A stretch of 10,000 bases of DNA from Kiritimatiellota bacterium. GTDB taxonomy: Bacteria > Verrucomicrobiota > Kiritimatiellia > JAAZAB01. A program made the position numbers and the translations under genes. Positions within the stretch are counted from its first letter, which is position 1. The number at the start of each line of letters is the position of its first letter. Under the pieces are notes generated by a model. It ran no database searches and had not been told where the DNA came from. It worked only from the letters and a program-made list of their open reading frames with translations. The DNA lies in NCBI GenBank assembly GCA_008636095.1, contig VSJD01000250.1, forward strand, positions 1-10,000, given 5' to 3'. Positions 1,331-9,131 of this stretch are shown here, piece by piece.

Positions 1331-2266
1331 ATGGATCAATCTTTCCCGTCCCTTATCAAAATGTCTTGCCCGCACCCCTTCCGGCTGGGGGTACCCTCCT
1401 ATGTGTACCCGGCGGACATTCTGCCTAACGTCAAGGCCCTGGCGCCTTATGTGGATGACATCGAACTGGTGTTGTTCGAATCGCGAAGCCCAGACGACAG
1501 AGCTTCCAATATCCCGGACCCGGATATTATTCAACGCCTGGCGGAATTGGCGCAACAACACGATTTGACCTATACTGTACATTTTCCCATTGACCGGCAT
1601 TTGGGAAGCCCCGACGCCGAGGAACGCCGGGCGCTTCTACGCCGGATACTTGCCATCATGGACCGTACGCGGCCGTTAGCGCCGTTCGCCTATATTTTGC
1701 ATCTGGAAGGCATCACCCGGGACAGTGATCACGCACGCATTCGAACCTGGCAAAACGATATTGCCGAGCTTCTGCCCACCCTCATCGAGCGCGCGGGCGA
1801 CCCAGCATTCCTCTGCGTGGAAAACCTTAATTACCCCTTTGCCTGGTGTGAACCGCTCCTGAACCGATTTGGCCTGGGCGTCTGTATTGACTTAGGACAC
1901 CTGTGGGTTGGCAGTGAAGCACCTCGTGGCAGACCGCAGGGTATCTTTGCGGAATCCTGCGAAGCCAGCAATACCATTTCTCCCTGTGGCAAGCCACATG
2001 GCTTCCTGGCGAAGAAGGATGACAACGTAGAGGCACACTTGAAGCGCCACCTACCCCGCACACGCGTCATCCACCTGCATGGCGTTTGCGACGGGCACGA
2101 TCACCTGGCCCTGACGGCACTTCCGCCCGGCCGCCTGCGTCAGCTACTGAATTCCATTGACAAATTCACCGGTGTGCTGACACTGGAGATTTTCAATTAC
2201 AAGGAGGTTCGGGATTCGGTGGTCTGTTTGAATCAATGTAATTGCACAGTAGTCAGGAGACAGTAG
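1331..2266 (+). CDS. cbiR: CbiR-like cobamide-remodelling phosphodiesterase
   Basis: Predicted 311-residue TIM-barrel protein of the xylose isomerase/AP endonuclease-like superfamily. CbiR (described from Akkermansia) cleaves the nucleotide loop of cobamides so the lower ligand can be exchanged. Visible family marks are FRLGVPSYVYPADILPNV at the N-terminus (residues 17-34) and candidate metal ligands on strand ends: H84 (TVHFP), H124 (ILHLEG), E164 (VENLNYP), D187/H190 (DLGH), H248/H250 (HLHG) and E286 (LEIF). The next gene is cobU, which acts on the expected product, strongly supporting the role. The ATG at 1331 lies 6 nt after the upstream stop; ATG 1361 is an equally good start, and neither has a clear Shine-Dalgarno site. 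Odd features are an extra ~32-residue segment (about residues 196-227) between DLGH and HLHG, and a C-terminal tail and TAG stop supplied by an intergenic repeat. No cobalamin riboswitch is possible in the 6-nt gap and none is seen. Confidence 0.82.
   Translation: MDQSFPSLIKMSCPHPFRLGVPSYVYPADILPNVKALAPYVDDIELVLFESRSPDDRASNIPDPDIIQRLAELAQQHDLTYTVHFPIDRHLGSPDAEERRALLRRILAIMDRTRPLAPFAYILHLEGITRDSDHARIRTWQNDIAELLPTLIERAGDPAFLCVENLNYPFAWCEPLLNRFGLGVCIDLGHLWVGSEAPRGRPQGIFAESCEASNTISPCGKPHGFLAKKDDNVEAHLKRHLPRTRVIHLHGVCDGHDHLALTALPPGRLRQLLNSIDKFTGVLTLEIFNYKEVRDSVVCLNQCNCTVVRRQ
1916..2011 (+). repeat. In-frame palindrome-rich insert within cbiR
   Basis: This segment of about 96 nt (residues about 196-227) separates the DLGHLW and HLHG motifs, which are normally joined by a short charged helix such as the remaining KKDDNVEAHLKRHLPRTR. 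It contains inverted repeats: AAGCCA at 1991-1996 with TGGCTT at 1999-2004; GAAGCCA at 1961-1967 with TGGCTTC at 1999-2005; and CCGCAGGG (about 1933-1940) against CCCTGTGG (1982-1989) with one mismatch. GAAG occurs at both edges (1916-1919 and 2011-2014), possibly a short target duplication. The protein it encodes is rich in G, P, C and S. Boundaries are estimated from family expectation, not from an alignment. Confidence 0.5.
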
Positions 2267-2362
2267 TCAGAACGAAATGCCCATGTGCATGCCATCCAGA
2301 AGACAGTAGTCAGAATTCTGACTCTTGGCGTTGCTTTCCTCATTCTGAATTCTGACTTCTTA
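2247..2362 (+). repeat. Heptad-phased repeat cluster between cbiR and cobU
   Basis: The gap holds 7-nt units: AGTCAGG, AGACAGT, AGTCAGA (2251-2271), then AGACAGT, AGTCAGA, ATTCTGA (2301-2321), and ATTCTGA, ATTCTGA, CTTCTTA (2342-2362). The 15-mer AGACAGTAGTCAGAA occurs twice, at 2258 and 2301. AGTCAGAATTCTGACT at 2308-2323 is a perfect 16-nt palindrome, and GTCAGAATTC at 2309-2318 can also pair with GAATTCTGAC at 2347-2356, so two hairpins compete. The cbiR stop codon lies inside the first repeat block, so the repeat writes the end of the protein. Confidence 0.85.
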
Positions 2363-2368
2363 ATTAGC

Positions 2369-2372
2369 GAGG
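2369..2372 (+). promoter_or_regulatory. Shine-Dalgarno site deciding the cobU start
   Basis: GAGG lies 5 nt upstream of the ATG at 2378. The farther upstream in-frame ATG at 2285 would translate the heptad repeats into an unrelated hydrophobic leader, so 2378 is preferred. Confidence 0.6.
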
Positions 2373-2377
2373 TCCCC

Positions 2378-3064
2378 ATGCCTAACCGCCTTAAGGCGAA
2401 TAAATCGCGCGTTCCAAAGACCGCTTGGCGGCCTTTGGTCCGCCTTCTGATCCTCGGTGGCGCACGCAGTGGTAAAAGCCGCCTGGCGCAGGATATTGCC
2501 GTACGCCGGTGGCAGCGCCCGGTGTACCTGGCCACGGCGGAAATCCTGGATGACGAAATGGCCGATCGGGTTCGCATGCACCGTCGGGCACGCGCCCTGA
2601 AGTTAAGCGACCCGGGCTACGCCGGAGGCTTCGCCGACTCGCCGTCGCGAAGCGCTATGGCGGAGCGCGGGGCGAGAGCACATACTTCAGGGCGCGCACA
2701 ACGCTGGCGTTGTGTGGAAGAGCCCCTGGAGATTGCCAAAATCATACGCCGGGGCGTACCGGGCACGGATGGCATCCTCGTGGATTGTCTCACAATCTGG
2801 CTCAGCAACGTGCTCCTGAAGGAAGGCCGCGGCGCGTTTGCCCGGCGGCGGGACGAGCTGGTCAAGGCCCTGCACCAGGCGCGGCAGGACGTGATCCTGG
2901 TGGCCAATGAAGTCGGCATGGGCGTGGTGCCGGAATACGCCTTGGGCCGGACATTCCGCGACCTGGCCGGCTGGCTGAATCAGTCCATGGCGAAGGAAGC
3001 GGATACCGTGGTGTTTGTGGCGGCGGGCTTGCCGCTTGTGTTAAAAGGCCGTTTGCCGGAATAA
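2378..3064 (+). CDS. cobU: Adenosylcobinamide kinase / adenosylcobinamide-phosphate guanylyltransferase
   Basis: A 228-residue cytoplasmic nucleotide-binding protein. CobU phosphorylates adenosylcobinamide and transfers GMP from GTP, giving AdoCbi-GDP, the activated form to which a new lower ligand is attached. The P-loop GGARSGKSR is at residues 27-35; ATAEILDDEMADRVRMHRR follows, with H68 at the position of the guanylylated histidine region; later come VEEPLEI (113-119), VDCLTIWLSN (135-144) and the C-terminal family block NEVGMGVVPEYALGRTFRDL (177-196) and AGLPLVLKG (216-224). The start at 2378 has an upstream GAGG. Residues about 75-107 are an excess of about 34 residues between the conserved His and WRCVEEP, where family members usually have about eight residues from H to W. 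If the insert is tolerated the enzyme is complete; it lies in a surface loop region next to the guanylylation site. It lies downstream of cbiR and probably works with it. Confidence 0.92.
   Translation: MPNRLKANKSRVPKTAWRPLVRLLILGGARSGKSRLAQDIAVRRWQRPVYLATAEILDDEMADRVRMHRRARALKLSDPGYAGGFADSPSRSAMAERGARAHTSGRAQRWRCVEEPLEIAKIIRRGVPGTDGILVDCLTIWLSNVLLKEGRGAFARRRDELVKALHQARQDVILVANEVGMGVVPEYALGRTFRDLAGWLNQSMAKEADTVVFVAAGLPLVLKGRLPE
2598..2714 (+). repeat. In-frame hairpin-rich insert within cobU
   Basis: Two hairpins lie here. GCTTCGC at 2628-2634 pairs with GCGAAGC at 2647-2653, extendable by GA/TC past a bulged C. CACAACGC at 2697-2704 pairs perfectly with GCGTTGTG at 2707-2714 across a 2-nt loop. 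The excess coding stretch encodes low-complexity residues rich in G, A, S and R (for example GYAGGFADSPSRSAMAERGA) in place of the short loop of normal CobU proteins. The right-hand hairpin overlaps genuine CobU sequence (AQRWRCV), so the insert probably ends near 2695. Size and reading-frame preservation match the insert in the preceding gene, although the two sequences are not obviously the same. Confidence 0.5.
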
Positions 3065-3089
3065 GGCATGAGATCTGACAAGAATTCAT

Positions 3090-3138
3090 GGTTCTTTGTT
3101 CCAGATTAACGAAGAACCAAGAACAAAGAACTTTCTTG
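3090..3138. terminator. Possible bidirectional terminator / heptad inverted repeat between convergent genes
   Basis: GTTCTTTGTTC at 3091-3101 and GAACAAAGAAC at 3121-3131 form a perfect 11-bp inverted repeat with a 19-nt spacer. The right arm belongs to three 7-nt units (GAAGAAC, CAAGAAC, AAAGAAC; 3111-3131). The whole gap 3065-3148 separates cobU (+) from the ABC exporter gene (-), the position where a shared terminator is expected. The stem is AT-rich with only a short T run after it, so termination efficiency is uncertain; it may simply be another member of the repeat family. Confidence 0.5.
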
Positions 3139-3148
3139 CAACTATCTA

Positions 3149-5131
3149 TTACGCCTTTGTCTGCCGGGCCACGAGGCGGGCATAAAAGCCGTTTTGCGCC
3201 GCCAGCTGGTCGTGGGTGCCCTGTTCACTGATTACGCCGTTTTCCAGCACATAGATCCGATGACAGCGCTGAGCCATGGACACGCGCTGGGTAACGATCA
3301 CCGCGGTTTTTCCCACCAGGATACGGGCCAGCGTCTCCTGAATACGGTATTCAATCTCCGCATCCAGCGCCGAGGTGCAATCATCCAGCAACAGGATTTC
3401 CGGTTGGGTCAGGAGCGCCCGCGCCAGGGACAGCCGCTGTTTCTGGCCGCCGGAAAGGCTGGCGCCCTTCTCGCCCAGGATGGTTTCATACTTGACCTTC
3501 ATGCTCATAATGAATTCGTGAAACTCGGCTGCGCGGGCCGCCTTAATAATGTCTTTCGGCTCGGCATCGGGGAGCCCGTAGCAGATATTGTCCCGCACGG
3601 TACCGCTGATGATCTGGGCTTCCTGCGGCACGAGCGCCAGGCGCTGGTGCAGGGACAGGATCCGGATTTTATTAATGGGGATCCCGTCGTAGAGAATTTC
3701 ACCCGCGTCCGGCTCGAACAACCGGGCCAGCAGGTGTAACAACGTCGTTTTGCCTACGCCGCTGGCACCCATGATGCACACCCATTGGCCCGCCGGAATT
3801 TCGAGCGAGATATCTTCAAGCACCGCCACGCTTTCCGGCCCGTACGAAAAACGAACATGATTCAGGGTGATGCCCTGTTTCAGTGGGAGCGGCAGATCCA
3901 CGGTATCGGGCGTATCCTGGATACGCACGGGTTCATCCATTACTTCCGCCAGCCGGTGCATGTACACCAGCAGGTTGGAGATCGTGACGTTCAGATAGCT
4001 CAACTGCAAGACCGGTCCGAACAGGGCGCCGGCAGTGCCCCAGGCATACATCATCTGGCCGAGGGTCATGGCGCCGTTCAGCACCCGGAATATGCCGTAG
4101 AGGAAAAGCACGCCGTTGCTCGCCATGCCGCTCATAATTTCGGCCGAATACCTCGTGGCCCCGCCCAGGCGGTTCTGCCACAGCACGTCCCGGGAAAAGC
4201 AGGCCGCCAACCGATGAAAGGTCAGGCGCTCCTTCGTCTCCTGCCCGCAGGCCTGGATCATTTTCGTGGCATCCAATTTCTGCGATACCAGCCCGTACAG
4301 GCAGGCGTTCGTATGGCTGAGCTCGATATTCATCCGGCGCAGGTTGGTATGCGCCGCCTTGAAGATCAACACATACAATGGCAGGCAAACCAGCACGATT
4401 ACGGCCATGCGCCAGTCAATGATTAACAACAGCAAAAAGCCAAATACAATAATGGACGTCAGCGAACAGACGTTGATGATAAGCTCCAGCAACTGGTCGG
4501 CTACTTTGTCGACGTCCGAGAGAATCCGGGCCATGAGCCGCCCGGGCGTATGGGTCGTTTGATACCCTAGCGACAACTTCAGCACCTTGGCATGCATATC
4601 AGCACGCAGGTTAACCGCAATGGCCTGGGTCACGCGAATGCGCCGGTGGGCGGCCAGCCGGTTCATCCAGTTGCTGAACGCCAACGTGGCTATATACAGG
4701 ACAAAGATCACACCCAGCCGGCGGCCGGCATCCGCCGGCCGCCAGGCAATCCGCGTCCCGACATCGAGACGCCGATCCAGGCCGGTTTGCACTCTCGGCC
4801 GGGCCGTCTGTTCCTGCTGGCGCTCCAGCCCGAACGATGTGGACTCACGGTCCGTCAGCCGATTACCGGCCGGGATCGTCCGTCGGACGGACTTGCTTTC
4901 CGCCGGCACTACGACCAGAATAGAATCCACCACCACCTTGTTGTAATAGGCCAACAGGTAAAACGATCCACAGTAGTCCAGAGTCGCCAGCAGGACACAC
5001 AAAGCAATGGTCCACCGGTAAGGCCCCAAATACGCGCGCATGAACCGCGCCAGCAGATTCAGTTTGCCGGCTTTACGGTCTTTCTGGCGGTACGGCGGCC
5101 GAAACGCATAGTTGCGATGGTGGAATTTCAT
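3149..5131 (-). CDS. ABC exporter half-transporter, degenerate-site subunit
   Basis: A 660-residue inner-membrane type IV ABC exporter half with six predicted transmembrane helices (roughly 41-62, 139-157, 215-238, 240-260, 328-350, 357-380) and a C-terminal ATPase domain. Motifs: Walker A GASGVGKT (455-462), Q-loop Q503, intact signature LSGGQ (559-563), Walker B ILLLDD (579-584). The catalytic Glu is replaced by Asp (D584) and the H-loop His by Gln (Q615, VTQRVS). In known heterodimeric exporters (TM287/288, BmrCD, TAP) such a subunit forms the degenerate site. Its ATG overlaps the stop of the upstream ABC gene by 4 nt (ATGA, 5128-5131), so the two are translationally coupled. Between TM1 and TM2 it has an unusually long polar extracytoplasmic loop (about 75-138). 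No C39 peptidase domain is present, so it does not process a leader peptide itself. The substrate is not identifiable. Confidence 0.93.
   Translation of the reverse strand: MKFHHRNYAFRPPYRQKDRKAGKLNLLARFMRAYLGPYRWTIALCVLLATLDYCGSFYLLAYYNKVVVDSILVVVPAESKSVRRTIPAGNRLTDRESTSFGLERQQEQTARPRVQTGLDRRLDVGTRIAWRPADAGRRLGVIFVLYIATLAFSNWMNRLAAHRRIRVTQAIAVNLRADMHAKVLKLSLGYQTTHTPGRLMARILSDVDKVADQLLELIINVCSLTSIIVFGFLLLLIIDWRMAVIVLVCLPLYVLIFKAAHTNLRRMNIELSHTNACLYGLVSQKLDATKMIQACGQETKERLTFHRLAACFSRDVLWQNRLGGATRYSAEIMSGMASNGVLFLYGIFRVLNGAMTLGQMMYAWGTAGALFGPVLQLSYLNVTISNLLVYMHRLAEVMDEPVRIQDTPDTVDLPLPLKQGITLNHVRFSYGPESVAVLEDISLEIPAGQWVCIMGASGVGKTTLLHLLARLFEPDAGEILYDGIPINKIRILSLHQRLALVPQEAQIISGTVRDNICYGLPDAEPKDIIKAARAAEFHEFIMSMKVKYETILGEKGASLSGGQKQRLSLARALLTQPEILLLDDCTSALDAEIEYRIQETLARILVGKTAVIVTQRVSMAQRCHRIYVLENGVISEQGTHDQLAAQNGFYARLVARQTKA
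4720..4743. repeat. GC-rich 10-bp perfect hairpin inside the ABC gene
   Basis: GGCGGCCGGC at 4720-4729 is followed after ATCC by its exact reverse complement GCCGGCCGCC at 4734-4743. It lies in the codons for RPADAGRRLG, at the end of the long TM1-TM2 loop insertion, immediately before TM2. It is the strongest stem in the coding part of the window. Confidence 0.85.
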
Positions 5132-6891
5132 TCCTTCTCGTCCTCGATCACATCCTTGTTCACATGCCGATTATATAGCGCGCGGTAACGGCCCTCCGGC
5201 AGGGCCATCAGCTCCGCATGGCTGCCAATCTCCAAAATGCGGCCATCCCGCATCAGTACAATCCGGGTTGCGTTACGGATCGTGCTCAGACGATGCGCGA
5301 CAATAAACGACGTGCGGTTCCGCAGGACCCTCTGCATGGCCAGCTGAATAGCCTGCTCGGATTCGCTATCCAGGGCGCTGGTAGCCTCGTCCATGATCAT
5401 GATGACCGGGTCGGCCAGCACGGCGCGGGCAATGGTCAGGCGCTGTTTCTGGCCGACCGAAAACTGCAGGCCTTCTGTACCCAGTACGGTCCGATACTGG
5501 TCCGGCAGGGCCATAATGAAATCATGGATTTCCGCCACTTTCGCCGCCGCCTCGATCTCAGCGGGCGTGGCATTCGACCGGGCATAGCGGATATTGTCGG
5601 CAATGCTCACGTTGAACAGGAGCGGGTCCTGGAGGACGATACCGAACTGCGCGCGCAGGCTTTTAAGTTCGTATTGCTGAACATCGCGGCCGTCGAGCTG
5701 CAGGCTCCCACCGCTGATATCGTAAAAGCGCATGAGCAGAAGCAACAGGGTGCTTTTGCCGCATCCGGTCGGTCCCACCAGGGCAATGGTCTCGCCCGGC
5801 TGAACGTGCAGGTCGAAATCCCGGATAACGGGCTGGGCCGGCTCGTAGGCGAAATCCACGCGGTTGAAATCCACCTGGCCCCGCAGGCGACCGGAGGGTA
5901 CGGCATCCGGCCGGTTCGTTACTTCCTGCGGTTCATTGTATATTTCGAGGATGCGTTCCACGGCGATGCGCACATCCTGGATTTGCCGCGCCAGCTCGGA
6001 CATGCGCACCGCTGGCCACAGGAGCCGCATGGCATAGACCGCAAATGCCGTCACGTCGCCGTAGGTCATGTCGCCGCGCAGGATCAGGGCACAGCCGGCG
6101 AAAAACAACACGGCTTGGCCCGTGTTCTGCAGAAGCGAGGTGTTTTGCCAGAACGTATTGCTGGAATAGCCGGCCTGCTGGAGCAGTTCCTTGCTGACTT
6201 CCGACTGCTCCTGGAAGATGCCCTGTTCGCGCGTCTCTGTGCCGAACGACTTGACGGCCAAGCTCGCGACCAGCCGGTTCTGCACCCCGCCCGACAGCCG
6301 GTCGAACGATTGCCGGTAACTGCGCGAGAGTGTCACGATTTTACCGATGTTCAGACGGTAATTCAGCACGAACGCGACAACCATGGCCACAATTACCAAG
6401 GCCAGCCGCCAGTTCAATACGAAGGTCGCCGTAATGGCGAAGGCGGCACACACAAGGTCGGAGACAATGCCGATCGTCTGCGCGGACAGCATATTGGCCA
6501 CCATCCCAGTGTCACCCATGAGCCGATTGACCAGCATGCCTGTGCTATGCTTGCTGTAAAAACGGAGCGACATATCCAGCATGCGGCGGTAGAGCGCATT
6601 GCGGATATCGAAGACGAAGCGCTGGCCGACGTAGGCAATCCCCTGCGTCTGGATAAACGCAAATACCGGGACCAGCACAATGAGGGCAATCCGCCAGAAG
6701 CTCAGCGAAAAAATCAGGTCCTGCCGGTTCAGGCTGACCACCTGGTCAATGAAGGCCCGCGTGATCAGCGGCGAGCACATGTTCAGGATGGAAAGCAGGA
6801 CCGTCAACAGCAACAGCCGGATCAGTACCCAGCGGTAAGGGGCGAGGAAACCCAGGACAATCAGGAAATTCGATTGTTTTTTAGTAACCAC
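5128..6891 (-). CDS. ABC exporter half-transporter, catalytic-site subunit
   Basis: A 587-residue ABC exporter half with six predicted membrane helices (about 20-40, 63-85, 140-160, 163-180, 250-272, 276-295) and an ATPase domain. Walker A GPTGCGKS (373-380), Q421, Walker B IMIMDE with catalytic E502, and H-loop H533 are all intact. The signature is FSVGQ (477-481) instead of LSGGQ. This defect is exactly complementary to the partner: this subunit's Walker motifs plus the partner's LSGGQ make one competent ATP site, while the other site is degenerate. The first codon is GTG (6889-6891) with no visible Shine-Dalgarno; heptad repeats abut it directly, and no nearby ATG alternative fits. HlyD and TolC genes upstream on the same strand suggest a trans-envelope exporter. 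Close in type to multidrug/lipid/peptide exporters; the cargo is unknown. Confidence 0.93.
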   Translation of the reverse strand: MVTKKQSNFLIVLGFLAPYRWVLIRLLLLTVLLSILNMCSPLITRAFIDQVVSLNRQDLIFSLSFWRIALIVLVPVFAFIQTQGIAYVGQRFVFDIRNALYRRMLDMSLRFYSKHSTGMLVNRLMGDTGMVANMLSAQTIGIVSDLVCAAFAITATFVLNWRLALVIVAMVVAFVLNYRLNIGKIVTLSRSYRQSFDRLSGGVQNRLVASLAVKSFGTETREQGIFQEQSEVSKELLQQAGYSSNTFWQNTSLLQNTGQAVLFFAGCALILRGDMTYGDVTAFAVYAMRLLWPAVRMSELARQIQDVRIAVERILEIYNEPQEVTNRPDAVPSGRLRGQVDFNRVDFAYEPAQPVIRDFDLHVQPGETIALVGPTGCGKSTLLLLLMRFYDISGGSLQLDGRDVQQYELKSLRAQFGIVLQDPLLFNVSIADNIRYARSNATPAEIEAAAKVAEIHDFIMALPDQYRTVLGTEGLQFSVGQKQRLTIARAVLADPVIMIMDEATSALDSESEQAIQLAMQRVLRNRTSFIVAHRLSTIRNATRIVLMRDGRILEIGSHAELMALPEGRYRALYNRHVNKDVIEDEKE

Positions 6892-6893
6892 AA

Positions 6894-7061
6894 GGTGTTC
6901 GGTGTTCAGGGTTCGGGGTTCAGGTTGAAATCCAGTAATCCCGCTTGATTAAACGTGTCGCAATATTTTGTATTTCAATTGCTTGAGATAAACACGTCAG
7001 GGAAAAACGCTTGCGTCGGCAACCTGATTCTTCCAGTTCCGAACACCGAACACTGAACACC
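6894..7061. repeat. Inverted heptad arrays flanking an AT-rich core
   Basis: The left arm is four 7-nt units, GGTGTTC, GGTGTTC, AGGGTTC and GGGGTTC (6894-6921). The right arm is GAACACC, GAACACT and GAACACC (7041-7061), reverse complementary to the first three left units at 18 of 21 positions. About 120 nt lie between, including an AT-rich stretch (about 6945-7000) flanked by ACGTGT (6953-6958) and ACACGT. The left arm ends two bases from the GTG start of the ABC gene, so it forms that gene's 5' leader. The gap might hold a promoter or act as an RNA hairpin within the operon; no convincing promoter could be recognised. Confidence 0.8.
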
Positions 7062-7068
7062 TGAGCAG

Positions 7069-7096
7069 ACCATCAACCATTCTCCATCATCCATCA
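7069..7096. repeat. Second heptad array beside the hlyD-like stop
   Basis: Four 7-nt units in a row, ACCATCA, ACCATTC, TCCATCA and TCCATCA, run up to 10 nt from the end of the adaptor gene. The heptamer differs from the adjacent GAACACC array but keeps the same period, with a 7-nt junction between the two. Confidence 0.8.
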
Positions 7097-7106
7097 TTCA
7101 GCTCCC

Positions 7107-8147
7107 CTAATTCAGCCCGAACAGGAAAAACCAGAGGCAGGTTTTCCCGTAATAGACCTTGGCTTCCGCCGTGGTGCCGGGCGGGACGGCATGGTTCTGC
7201 GAATCGAAACTGCAGAAGGCCACCCGGTAAGTCGTTTGCCCGTCCGACTGGATCACGTTGCGCAGGTACTGGACCTCGCCCCGGAACCGGACACGCCGGA
7301 GTCCGCGGTAGGAAGCCAGCCAGGCGTAATACCGGTTGCCAACCGCCACGCGCAGGGCGTGACGCTCCAAAATGCGCAGTTTCAGGATTTGCTTTTCGCC
7401 GCCGAAGATTTCGTAGAGCAGTGTTTCCGGCCGCACCAGTTCGCCCAGGACAAACTCATAGCGGAGCACCTGGCCGGCAATCGGCGCACGAATTTCGCGC
7501 GCCCGAATGGCGGCCTCCGCCCGTGCCGCCGCATCCTGCCGCGACTCCAGCTCCTGGCGTAAAACGGTCAGATCTTTCTCATACAGGCTCAGGTCTTTTT
7601 TCAGCAGGGAATCCAACTCCGCGCGGGCAAGCTGTTCCTTCAACTGGTCATCCTCCAGCACACTGCCGGCCACCAGTCCACGTGTCATACCCTCCCGGGT
7701 ACGGGTTAGGCGACTCATGGCGTTCTGCAGGCGCAGGTTAGCAACGGCACTGTCCTCGCTCAGTCTCCGCTTCTGCTCGGCAATTTGAGTTTCGCGTTGC
7801 TTCAGCTCCGCTTCCGCCTTCTGAGCCTGGTTGCGGGACTCCTCCAGGGACGCCTGCTCCTCGGCACAGCTTAACTGGACCAGCAGATCGCCCTGCTTGA
7901 CCCGCGCCCCCGATTGCACCAGGATGTTGGAAATGAGGCCGACCACCGGGGAACGCACTTCAGCGTAATGCTCGGTAGTTACGTAGCCGCTGGCCGGCAC
8001 GTACTGGTTCACCCGGATCGCAAACCCGGCCAGGATCATGCCAACGGCCGTGGCCAACCCATAGGTCAGGAAGCGTCGTTGTTTCAATCGGCGCTCCTGG
8101 GTAGTTAACGGCAGGTCGCCGGCATCTGTTTTCTGAAAAATCCCCAT
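7107..8147 (-). CDS. HlyD-family periplasmic adaptor (membrane fusion protein)
   Basis: A 346-residue adaptor linking an inner-membrane ABC exporter to an outer-membrane channel. The N-terminal ~27 residues are cytoplasmic, followed by one membrane anchor (about 28-46). The first half of the biotinyl/lipoyl-like domain follows (about 52-92, with VRSPVVGLISNILVQSGARV and KQGDLLVQL), then a long alpha-helical coiled-coil hairpin (about 94-215, rich in E, Q, R and A). The second lipoyl half carries the family motif IRAPIAGQVL (219-228) and GELVRPETLLYEI. A beta-barrel region ends in PPGTTAEAKVYYGK, near the C-terminus. The start is ATG with no good Shine-Dalgarno. Co-oriented ABC and TolC genes on either side confirm the assignment. 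The short C-terminal tail (TCLWFFLFGLN) is hydrophobic and could touch the membrane. Confidence 0.92.
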   Translation of the reverse strand: MGIFQKTDAGDLPLTTQERRLKQRRFLTYGLATAVGMILAGFAIRVNQYVPASGYVTTEHYAEVRSPVVGLISNILVQSGARVKQGDLLVQLSCAEEQASLEESRNQAQKAEAELKQRETQIAEQKRRLSEDSAVANLRLQNAMSRLTRTREGMTRGLVAGSVLEDDQLKEQLARAELDSLLKKDLSLYEKDLTVLRQELESRQDAAARAEAAIRAREIRAPIAGQVLRYEFVLGELVRPETLLYEIFGGEKQILKLRILERHALRVAVGNRYYAWLASYRGLRRVRFRGEVQYLRNVIQSDGQTTYRVAFCSFDSQNHAVPPGTTAEAKVYYGKTCLWFFLFGLN

Positions 8148-8321
8148 ATTACCAAACCAGTTTCAAAATTCTATTTTGCCACAAAAATGCACAAGAGACA
8201 CAAAACAAGGCAACAAAGCATAAGAGCATGATATTAAATGGAATACATTGTTAAATCATGATTCTTTGGCTTTCCTATTTGTGAATTTTGTGCCTCTTTG
8301 TGGCTACTTTTGTAATTGACT
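8148..8321. repeat. Intergenic gap with CACAAA-type inverted repeat
   Basis: This 174-nt AT-rich gap lies between the adaptor and the Cys-rich protein gene. Bases 8178-8194 (GCCACAAA then GCACAA) and 8288-8304 (TTGTGC then TTTGTGGC) are inverted repeats matching at about 15 of 17 positions. CACAA/ACAAG units follow the left arm loosely. As RNA from the operon strand this would be a long-looped hairpin between the two genes and could attenuate adaptor expression. No ORF or clear promoter is seen. Confidence 0.65.
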
Positions 8322-9131
8322 CTACTTCTTCTGGTTTTTGATTTTCAGAAAATCCTTGGCAATCATACGGATACCGTCGGTTTCGTCGTCATAGCGCTTG
8401 GTGCACAAGTTGCATTCGGAACACTTGGTCTCGTAACAGTTCCGGTGCACGCGTGACGGATACATTTTCCGGAAGGCCTCATAACAGTCGGTCGAGCAGA
8501 ACACGTAGCGTTCCTGGCTACAGCCGAAAGCCGCCTGTACCAGACTGAAACCATCCTTTTCCGGGTCCGCCGCGCCGTTGCACCACGCACATGCAATCTT
8601 CATGCGATCAGTGACCTGCTTATAGCGTTGGGCAATTTCCGCTTCCGTCCAGATATATTCAATCCAGCTCACGGCGTCCTTGGGCACCTTGGCGCTGACA
8701 ACGTCGTTCCTGATAATGAACACATCGCCCGTGGTAAGGACATAACAATGCTCACCTTCAATCGGAACGTTGTTTTCCCGCAGGTGGACACGCACCGGAC
8801 CGCGTTGGGGCACCTCAAAGGTGTTCCAGCCACAAGCTATGCAAATCGTGGCAAACAGGTGCTCGTTCAGGTGCTCCCCGCACCGGGGGCACATGCCCAT
8901 TTGAATGACGTGCAGGTCCTTGACAGAATCCTCCGCCGCCCCCTGGACCTGTTTCTCCGCCTCCTGATGAAGCCGTTTCTCTTTTTCACCGTATTCATCC
9001 TCCAGGATCATGATGTCACGCTCCAGATTATCCCTCTGCTGGTCCGGCAACACAATGTTTTCAAGAGTAGGTTGATCCACGGTCTCTTCCGGGGTTTTTC
9101 CCAACCCGAACATTTGCTTCAACATGCGCAT
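8322..9131 (-). CDS. Cys-rich zinc-ribbon / TRASH-like protein of unknown function in the exporter operon
   Basis: Not recognised as a named family. A 269-residue protein without signal peptide or membrane helix. Residues 30-72 are charged and probably coiled-coil. Next is a zinc-ribbon-like knuckle pair, C81-x2-C84 and C97-x2-C100 (CPRCG and CIACG). A probable beta domain follows (about 105-160). Then comes C181-x2-C184 with C212-x3-C216 (FCSTDCYEAFRKMYP), resembling a TRASH/MYM-type treble clef, and a third cluster C232, C237, C240, C243 (CSECNLC). The start ATG at 9131 has a strong AGGAGG 12 nt upstream; a longer frame reaching 9311 would overlap the TolC gene and lacks a start signal. It begins 32 nt after the TolC stop, so it is almost certainly cotranscribed with the exporter. 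Possible roles are a metal-dependent regulator, a chaperone, or a factor acting on the cargo; none can be shown. Confidence 0.75.
   Translation of the reverse strand: MRMLKQMFGLGKTPEETVDQPTLENIVLPDQQRDNLERDIMILEDEYGEKEKRLHQEAEKQVQGAAEDSVKDLHVIQMGMCPRCGEHLNEHLFATICIACGWNTFEVPQRGPVRVHLRENNVPIEGEHCYVLTTGDVFIIRNDVVSAKVPKDAVSWIEYIWTEAEIAQRYKQVTDRMKIACAWCNGAADPEKDGFSLVQAAFGCSQERYVFCSTDCYEAFRKMYPSRVHRNCYETKCSECNLCTKRYDDETDGIRMIAKDFLKIKNQKK

Follow-up and report, generated by a model that had tools for sequence, protein, structure and literature searches.

Genes and gaps of the window

The DNA analysed here, referred to as the window, is a stretch of 10,000 nucleotides that forms one 10-kb piece of the source genome G000 (3.8 Mb in 357 pieces). 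The host is a Kiritimatiellota-type MAG. The nearest named relatives were MAGs titled Kiritimatiellaeota, Kiritimatiellae, and Verrucomicrobia, and their loci L044, L045, and L046 showed 92-95% identity to the window across an ABC-transporter protein. Pfam matches in the window comprised RCC1 and FG-GAP repeats, a xylose-isomerase-like barrel, CobU, two ABC transporters, an HlyD-type adaptor, and an outer-membrane efflux protein; the protein encoded at 8325-9131 had no Pfam match, and no Rfam family was matched in the window up to an E value of 0.1. The cobU reading frame contained about 100 bases more than that of L045 (positions 2596-2707) and stayed open. This insert has the inverted ends CTGAAGT...ACTTCAG, that is, it is a palindromic element within a coding gene, and pieces of it matched other sites in G000 and in the sister species G003 and G004.

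A sequence-only reading of the window had described clear heptad arrays in three intergenic gaps and a looser family in a fourth. The best lag-7 score of each gap was compared with those of 1,000 mononucleotide shuffles. As a result, tandem 7-base units, intergenic and not coding, were confirmed in the first three gaps (each score matched by 0 of 1,000 shuffles), but not in the fourth.

Gap 1 (2247-2378) had a best score of 9.5. Its left array (2247-2270, score 7) consists of the AGTCAG motif, spaced mainly by 14 bases around a middle unit that is degenerate, whereas its right array (2342-2360, score 9.5) consists of ATTCTGA/ATTCTGACT and is inverted to positions 2305-2321; the arms 2305-2321 and 2344-2360 are 88% complementary. 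The upstream open frame (1331-2266) ends within the left array: its final codons and stop fall at 2247-2266, and the array may thus encode the C terminus of that protein. In gap 2 (3065-3148), one array (3108-3131, score 12) reads AACGAAG AACCAAG AACAAAG AAC and has a short inverted counterpart on its left, the arm GGTTCTTTGTTC. The relative L045 keeps this array; its left arm is 14 bases longer, and the gap is otherwise common to both.

Gap 3 (6892-7106) contains three arrays. The left arm (6894-6924, score 14), composed of GTTCGGT/GTTCAGG heptads, keeps its position in L045, and the right arm (7039-7060, score 12.5) is composed of CCGAACA heptads inverted to the left arm, with 90% complementarity between 6901-6921 and 7041-7061. 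The third array (7069-7100, score 10) consists of CCATCAA-type heptads. Gap 3 is common to the window and L045, whereas that of L044 bears a pair of CCAT-type arms, and the window's CCATCA array, next to the GAACAC arm, may be what is left of CCAT-type arms such as those of L044. In L046, about 5.4 kb of other sequence (3582-9040) occupies the place where gap 3 would be. The earlier description of heptamers that differ while the period and both orientations recur was borne out; both orientations are seen in the complementary arms of gaps 1 and 3. An origin at assembly joins was ruled out for gaps 2 and 3, since the same arrays occur in the separately assembled L045.

The best lag-7 score of gap 4 (8148-8321) was only 3, a value reached by 939 of 1,000 shuffles, and its classification as a fourth heptad array was therefore rejected. 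Gap 4 is instead one copy of a dispersed MITE-like element whose ends are CACAAA/TTTGTG. The element is short and multi-copy with terminal inverted repeats: a second copy in G000 (L132) is 90.5% identical over 158 bases, and two copies in G003 (L160 and L152) are about 74% identical. The site is empty in L044 and L046, where the flanking genes nearly touch. The best candidate for a target-site duplication, TTAC/CTAC, is imperfect.

Period 7 in the intergenic DNA of the genome

The genome-wide scan covered 80 of the 357 pieces of G000 (832 kb, about one-fifth of the genome, taken in order and not at random), with 426 gaps of at least 40 bases as defined by our own approximate gene caller. Intergenic self-match at lag 7 was 0.286 compared with 0.255 after shuffling (z = 22), with further peaks at lags 14, 21, and 28, whereas coding DNA gave 0.2465 at lag 7 and showed the codon period only. 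The autocorrelation peak that the sequence-only reading had proposed as a check is thus present in intergenic DNA and lacking in coding DNA. Intergenic lags 1, 3, 4, and 6 also exceeded the mononucleotide shuffles, the excess being smaller than that of lag 7 at all of these but lag 1, and the lag-7 peak is therefore best judged against neighbouring lags. At a score of at least 10, 74 lag-7 arrays were detected in 60 of the 426 gaps and none in one shuffle of the same gaps; every other lag between 4 and 13 yielded 1-7 arrays, and lag 14 yielded 43. Coding DNA of G000 yielded 18 lag-7 arrays in 742 kb.

Among the sister species, G003 had 20 arrays in 313 gaps and G004 had 61 in 273 gaps, those of G004 having been picked partly because of array hits; the coding calls contained 17 and 37 lag-7 arrays, respectively. 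The arrays were short, with a median of about 4.4 units. The longest in G000, a near-perfect CGGCTGA/CGACTGA array at L010:961-1054, has 13 units, whereas the usual array has four.

Word vocabulary

The 155 arrays of the three sister species fell into 22 word clusters, whereas 79-90 clusters were obtained in ten trials in which the column order was shuffled within each array. These clusters are approximate and depend on a threshold that we set: two of them resemble CCAT, and several CG-rich words are lumped together in the largest. Fourteen of the 22 held at least three arrays, and nine of the 14 were present in all three species. The reduction in cluster number and the recurrence across species indicate that the words form a limited set, and the earlier proposal, read as a mechanism that freely generates any period-7 sequence, is not supported.

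In the phylum, four-unit CCATNNN was found in 23 of 145 genomes and four-unit TCTGANN in 20 of 145 (G000 and G004 included in these counts). The eight genomes densest in CCATNNN gave zero hits with a reversed control, whereas in a few sparse genomes (G032, G102, and G097) control hits outnumbered the hits themselves. Triplets of GAACACN occurred in five genomes and those of AAGAACN in three. Among 38 genomes reached through loci, 12 had CCATNNN matches, three of these being the sister species themselves. In G179, with 191 CCATNNN matches, the variable bases were mainly AAG/AGG, and the idea that CCATNNN is one word everywhere was rejected on this difference. Some words recur in other genera and across the phylum, and lineages differ in others.

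With their fixed anchors and free positions, the words could also form clustered binding sites, occupied at seven-base steps by a protein (ribbon-helix-helix and nucleoid proteins would be examples) or by an RNA-binding factor. There are precedents: the ParB (omega) protein of pSM19035 binds 7-10 contiguous heptads in both orientations (PMC9499535), and IHF/HU has been proposed for paired sites in Geobacter (PMC2700814). However, the many words would demand different factors, and an expansion of HU/IHF received no clear support, with a mean of 2.1 genes in 15 array-rich genomes compared with 1.9 in all 145, and one gene in G000. The search for the omega family gave no match, the control genomes giving none either. 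We consider such binding-site clusters an unlikely explanation.

Inverted pairing and placement

An inverted partner in the same gap (at least 75% identity) was found for 22 of 74, 12 of 61, and 5 of 20 arrays in the three species, compared with 13 of 734, 8 of 599, and 2 of 200 control gaps (1-2%). The pairing of arms noticed in the window thus exceeded the controls in all three species, although most arrays had no partner at 75% identity. In the words examined, the polarity of the pairs was constant by eye, without counting; for example, ATGG lies in the 5' arm and CCAT in the 3' arm. When arm variants were paired in register, the values were close to those of registers shifted by seven.

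Arrays occurred in 9 of 168 gaps between divergent genes, 93 of 718 between codirectional genes, and 21 of 126 between convergent genes. The divergent class was poor in arrays compared with the other two (Fisher P = 0.0045 and 0.0018), and convergent and codirectional gaps did not differ in array frequency (P = 0.26). This avoidance could merely reflect the weeding out of insertions near promoters. In codirectional gaps, 63 of 118 arrays were located in the two-fifths nearest the upstream stop. RNA folding gave a mean z of -2.19 in 46 array gaps and -1.41 in a sample of 73 others.

Relation of units within arrays

The CCATNNN family, which is the best sampled, was analysed in runs of two to eight variable units. 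Neighbouring units matched at 92 of 273 variable letters, whereas 119.9 matches were expected under random dealing among arrays (P = 0.0005, the permutation P values assuming that arrays are independent). Neighbours were likewise below expectation in five further genomes among the matches listed (P = 0.009, 0.051, 0.027, 0.42, and 0.25). TCTGA leaned weakly in the same direction (identical neighbours 1 of 17 compared with 4.4 expected, P = 0.02; letters, P = 0.18), and the test was not significant for GAACA, AAGAAC, and CATTCT. In CGTC, GATT, and GAAC the direction was reversed, neighbours being more alike than units of different arrays, where the short anchors pool sub-words. Accordingly, mutual avoidance of neighbours was rejected as a general rule. 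The arrays were also not near-perfect direct repeats of one word, given that 4 of 155 were perfect and 22 word clusters were present.

These results bear on slippage, in which a polymerase would favour a seven-base step and arrays would arise and then decay. A published hypothesis links the seven-base step to how long a piece of DNA the polymerase holds (PMC4692102), and the 14-base difference between gap 2 and L045, the resemblance of neighbours in CGTC, GATT, and GAAC, and the 13-unit array of L010 are consistent with it. Neighbours that are less alike than unlinked units, in contrast, speak against ongoing slippage in CCATNNN, and the scarcity of perfect arrays points the same way. Moreover, a limited vocabulary would be unexpected, and slippage alone makes no inverted partners. 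Ongoing slippage is a poor account of CCATNNN, in which identical neighbours may be purged or selected against, and for the arrays in general we regard period-7 slippage as improbable.

Turnover of gaps between species and copying

In 31 of 54 orthologous comparisons among G000, G003, and G004, less than 30% of the shorter gap could be aligned, whereas the flanking gene ends were 78-94% identical; intergenic turnover is very fast in this genus. The intergenic sequence hardly aligned in 11 of 19 comparisons that involved an array and in 20 of 35 that did not, and array gaps were thus no better conserved than others. Other words were present in G004 on one or both sides at L024:3301, L164:1874, and L172:9197, but the replacement of words between species was rejected as a special property of arrays, because gaps without arrays turned over equally fast. 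Arrays were found in both orthologous gaps in 5 cases, on one side in 11 and 2, and in neither in 32 (Fisher P = 0.027), in a small table that is raw for gap length and in which some gaps enter both comparisons. In five kept gaps, 156 of 187 array bases were conserved when pooled, compared with 513 of 695 (P = 0.007); taken singly, two of the gaps were clearly better, two equal, and one worse, and this uneven excess is therefore weak evidence that was not relied on.

The sequence-only reading had also argued against the spread of one element, and a masked all-against-all search of the gaps agreed with this view, since no core common to the gaps with heptad arrays emerged. It returned six rows of matches among array gaps. 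Four or five of these were short palindromes or fragments of 17-36 bases, and a local exception was found at L180, where one real copied segment lies on both sides of a TAGGCTG array in two gaps (two match rows). Whole-element copying happens at least once but is not the rule.

The arrays could otherwise be the repetitive ends of short, foldback-like mobile elements moved by a transposase in trans. The two L180 gaps, alike on both sides of the array, would fit such an origin, as would whole gap contents present in one species and absent from another (L023:9029, L024:5229, and L197:7681), and the gap 4 element is proof that MITE-like copies exist here. In G015, 12 of 19 GAACACN matches begin in the first 100 bases of a contig, and this crowding at contig starts, which also favours mobile elements, is expected of a multi-copy repeat that breaks assembly. 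However, apart from L180 the array gaps share no common core, although the same search recovers the gap 4 family; turnover is just as fast in array-free gaps, and target-site duplication was not established. Y1 transposases were not supported as the mover: Y1 genes had a median of 8 in array-rich genomes, yet the array-rich G061 has none. G000 has four Y1 matches, one of which has heptad arrays in its flanking gaps. Foldback-like elements are thus a rather unlikely source of the arrays.

It is also conceivable, though we hold it to be quite doubtful, that a dedicated process writes arrays of fixed vocabulary into gaps, in many cases as the two arms of a pair whose core is unrelated, and does so mostly without element copying and without slippage. 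Examples would be array synthesis that is guided or templated, or selection by related proteins that move along DNA in seven-base steps, the words differing between lineages.

Comparison with known repeats and interpretation

Cyanobacterial STRR sequences are intergenic tandem heptamers. The TAACTGA repeats of Beggiatoaceae are likewise intergenic tandem heptamers (PMC4679880), and compared with both, the units described here are degenerate and often inversely paired. In Xanthomonas, GGGAATC heptamers are intergenic and form about 70 inverted pairs per genome (PMC4692102). They resemble the present arrays in their 7-base units, intergenic location, rarity between divergent genes, inverted pairs, and variation among close relatives; under-representation in divergent gaps and frequent inverted pairs were both found here. 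They differ in that one G-rich, quadruplex-forming word is used there (PMC4692102), whereas many words without a G tract per unit are used here, as read from the words CCATYAA, TCTGAYY, AAGAACN, and GAACACY and not by a quadruplex program.

The paired sites of Geobacter metallireducens consist of tandem heptamers (class 3, MTYCTGA) and octamers in opposite-strand pairs at variable distance (PMC2700814). ATTCTGA of gap 1 fits MTYCTGA and is paired; however, each arm of gap 1 has fewer than three units compared with the five reported, and of the three Geobacter classes one is clearly heptameric (PMC2700814), compared with 14 recurrent heptad clusters here. An excess of heptamers in bacteria has been remarked on but seldom pursued (PMC4692102), and a term search of a survey of short tandem repeats from 2025 (PMC12699852) gave no mention of heptamers. 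No description of these arrays in Kiritimatiellota was found among the open-access papers searched. The arrays extend the little-studied intergenic heptamer repeats described from a few other bacteria and are many-worded here.

With many words in one genome and sister species for comparison, slippage, mobile spread, and selection for binding can be told apart, because they differ in what they predict about the sharing of words and of cores (the latter mostly not shared), the pairing of arms, and the dissimilarity of neighbours seen in one family. With period, vocabulary, frequent inverted pairing, placement, and the difference between sister species observed, the reading that we prefer, tentatively and at somewhat less than an even chance, is that of dispersed short heptad arrays with a small vocabulary, located mainly away from promoter gaps and having a REP/BIME-like hairpin role at gene 3' ends. 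We infer this role as the preferred function. The paired arms would fold as a hairpin or cruciform, and in this form they may work in the manner of REP/BIME-type elements where genes end, with transcript-end protection, termination, or supercoil handling as candidate roles. The fixed positions of the words may be recognised by a binding factor or by the dispersal machinery, whereas the remaining positions would drift, as would the core that the arms enclose. The arrays would then come and go with the fast-changing intergenic DNA and would not be lengthened by slippage at present.

Similar to REP/BIME sequences, the arrays include short palindromic intergenic elements in high copy; however, REP/BIME sequences are without period 7 and are linked to TnpA-REP transposases. 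Other short families of REP-like palindromes were present in G000 gaps (L128:5500-5719, L011:4024-4229, L017:255-507, and L185:9398-9474), and some of the REP-like palindromes in this genome border heptad arrays.
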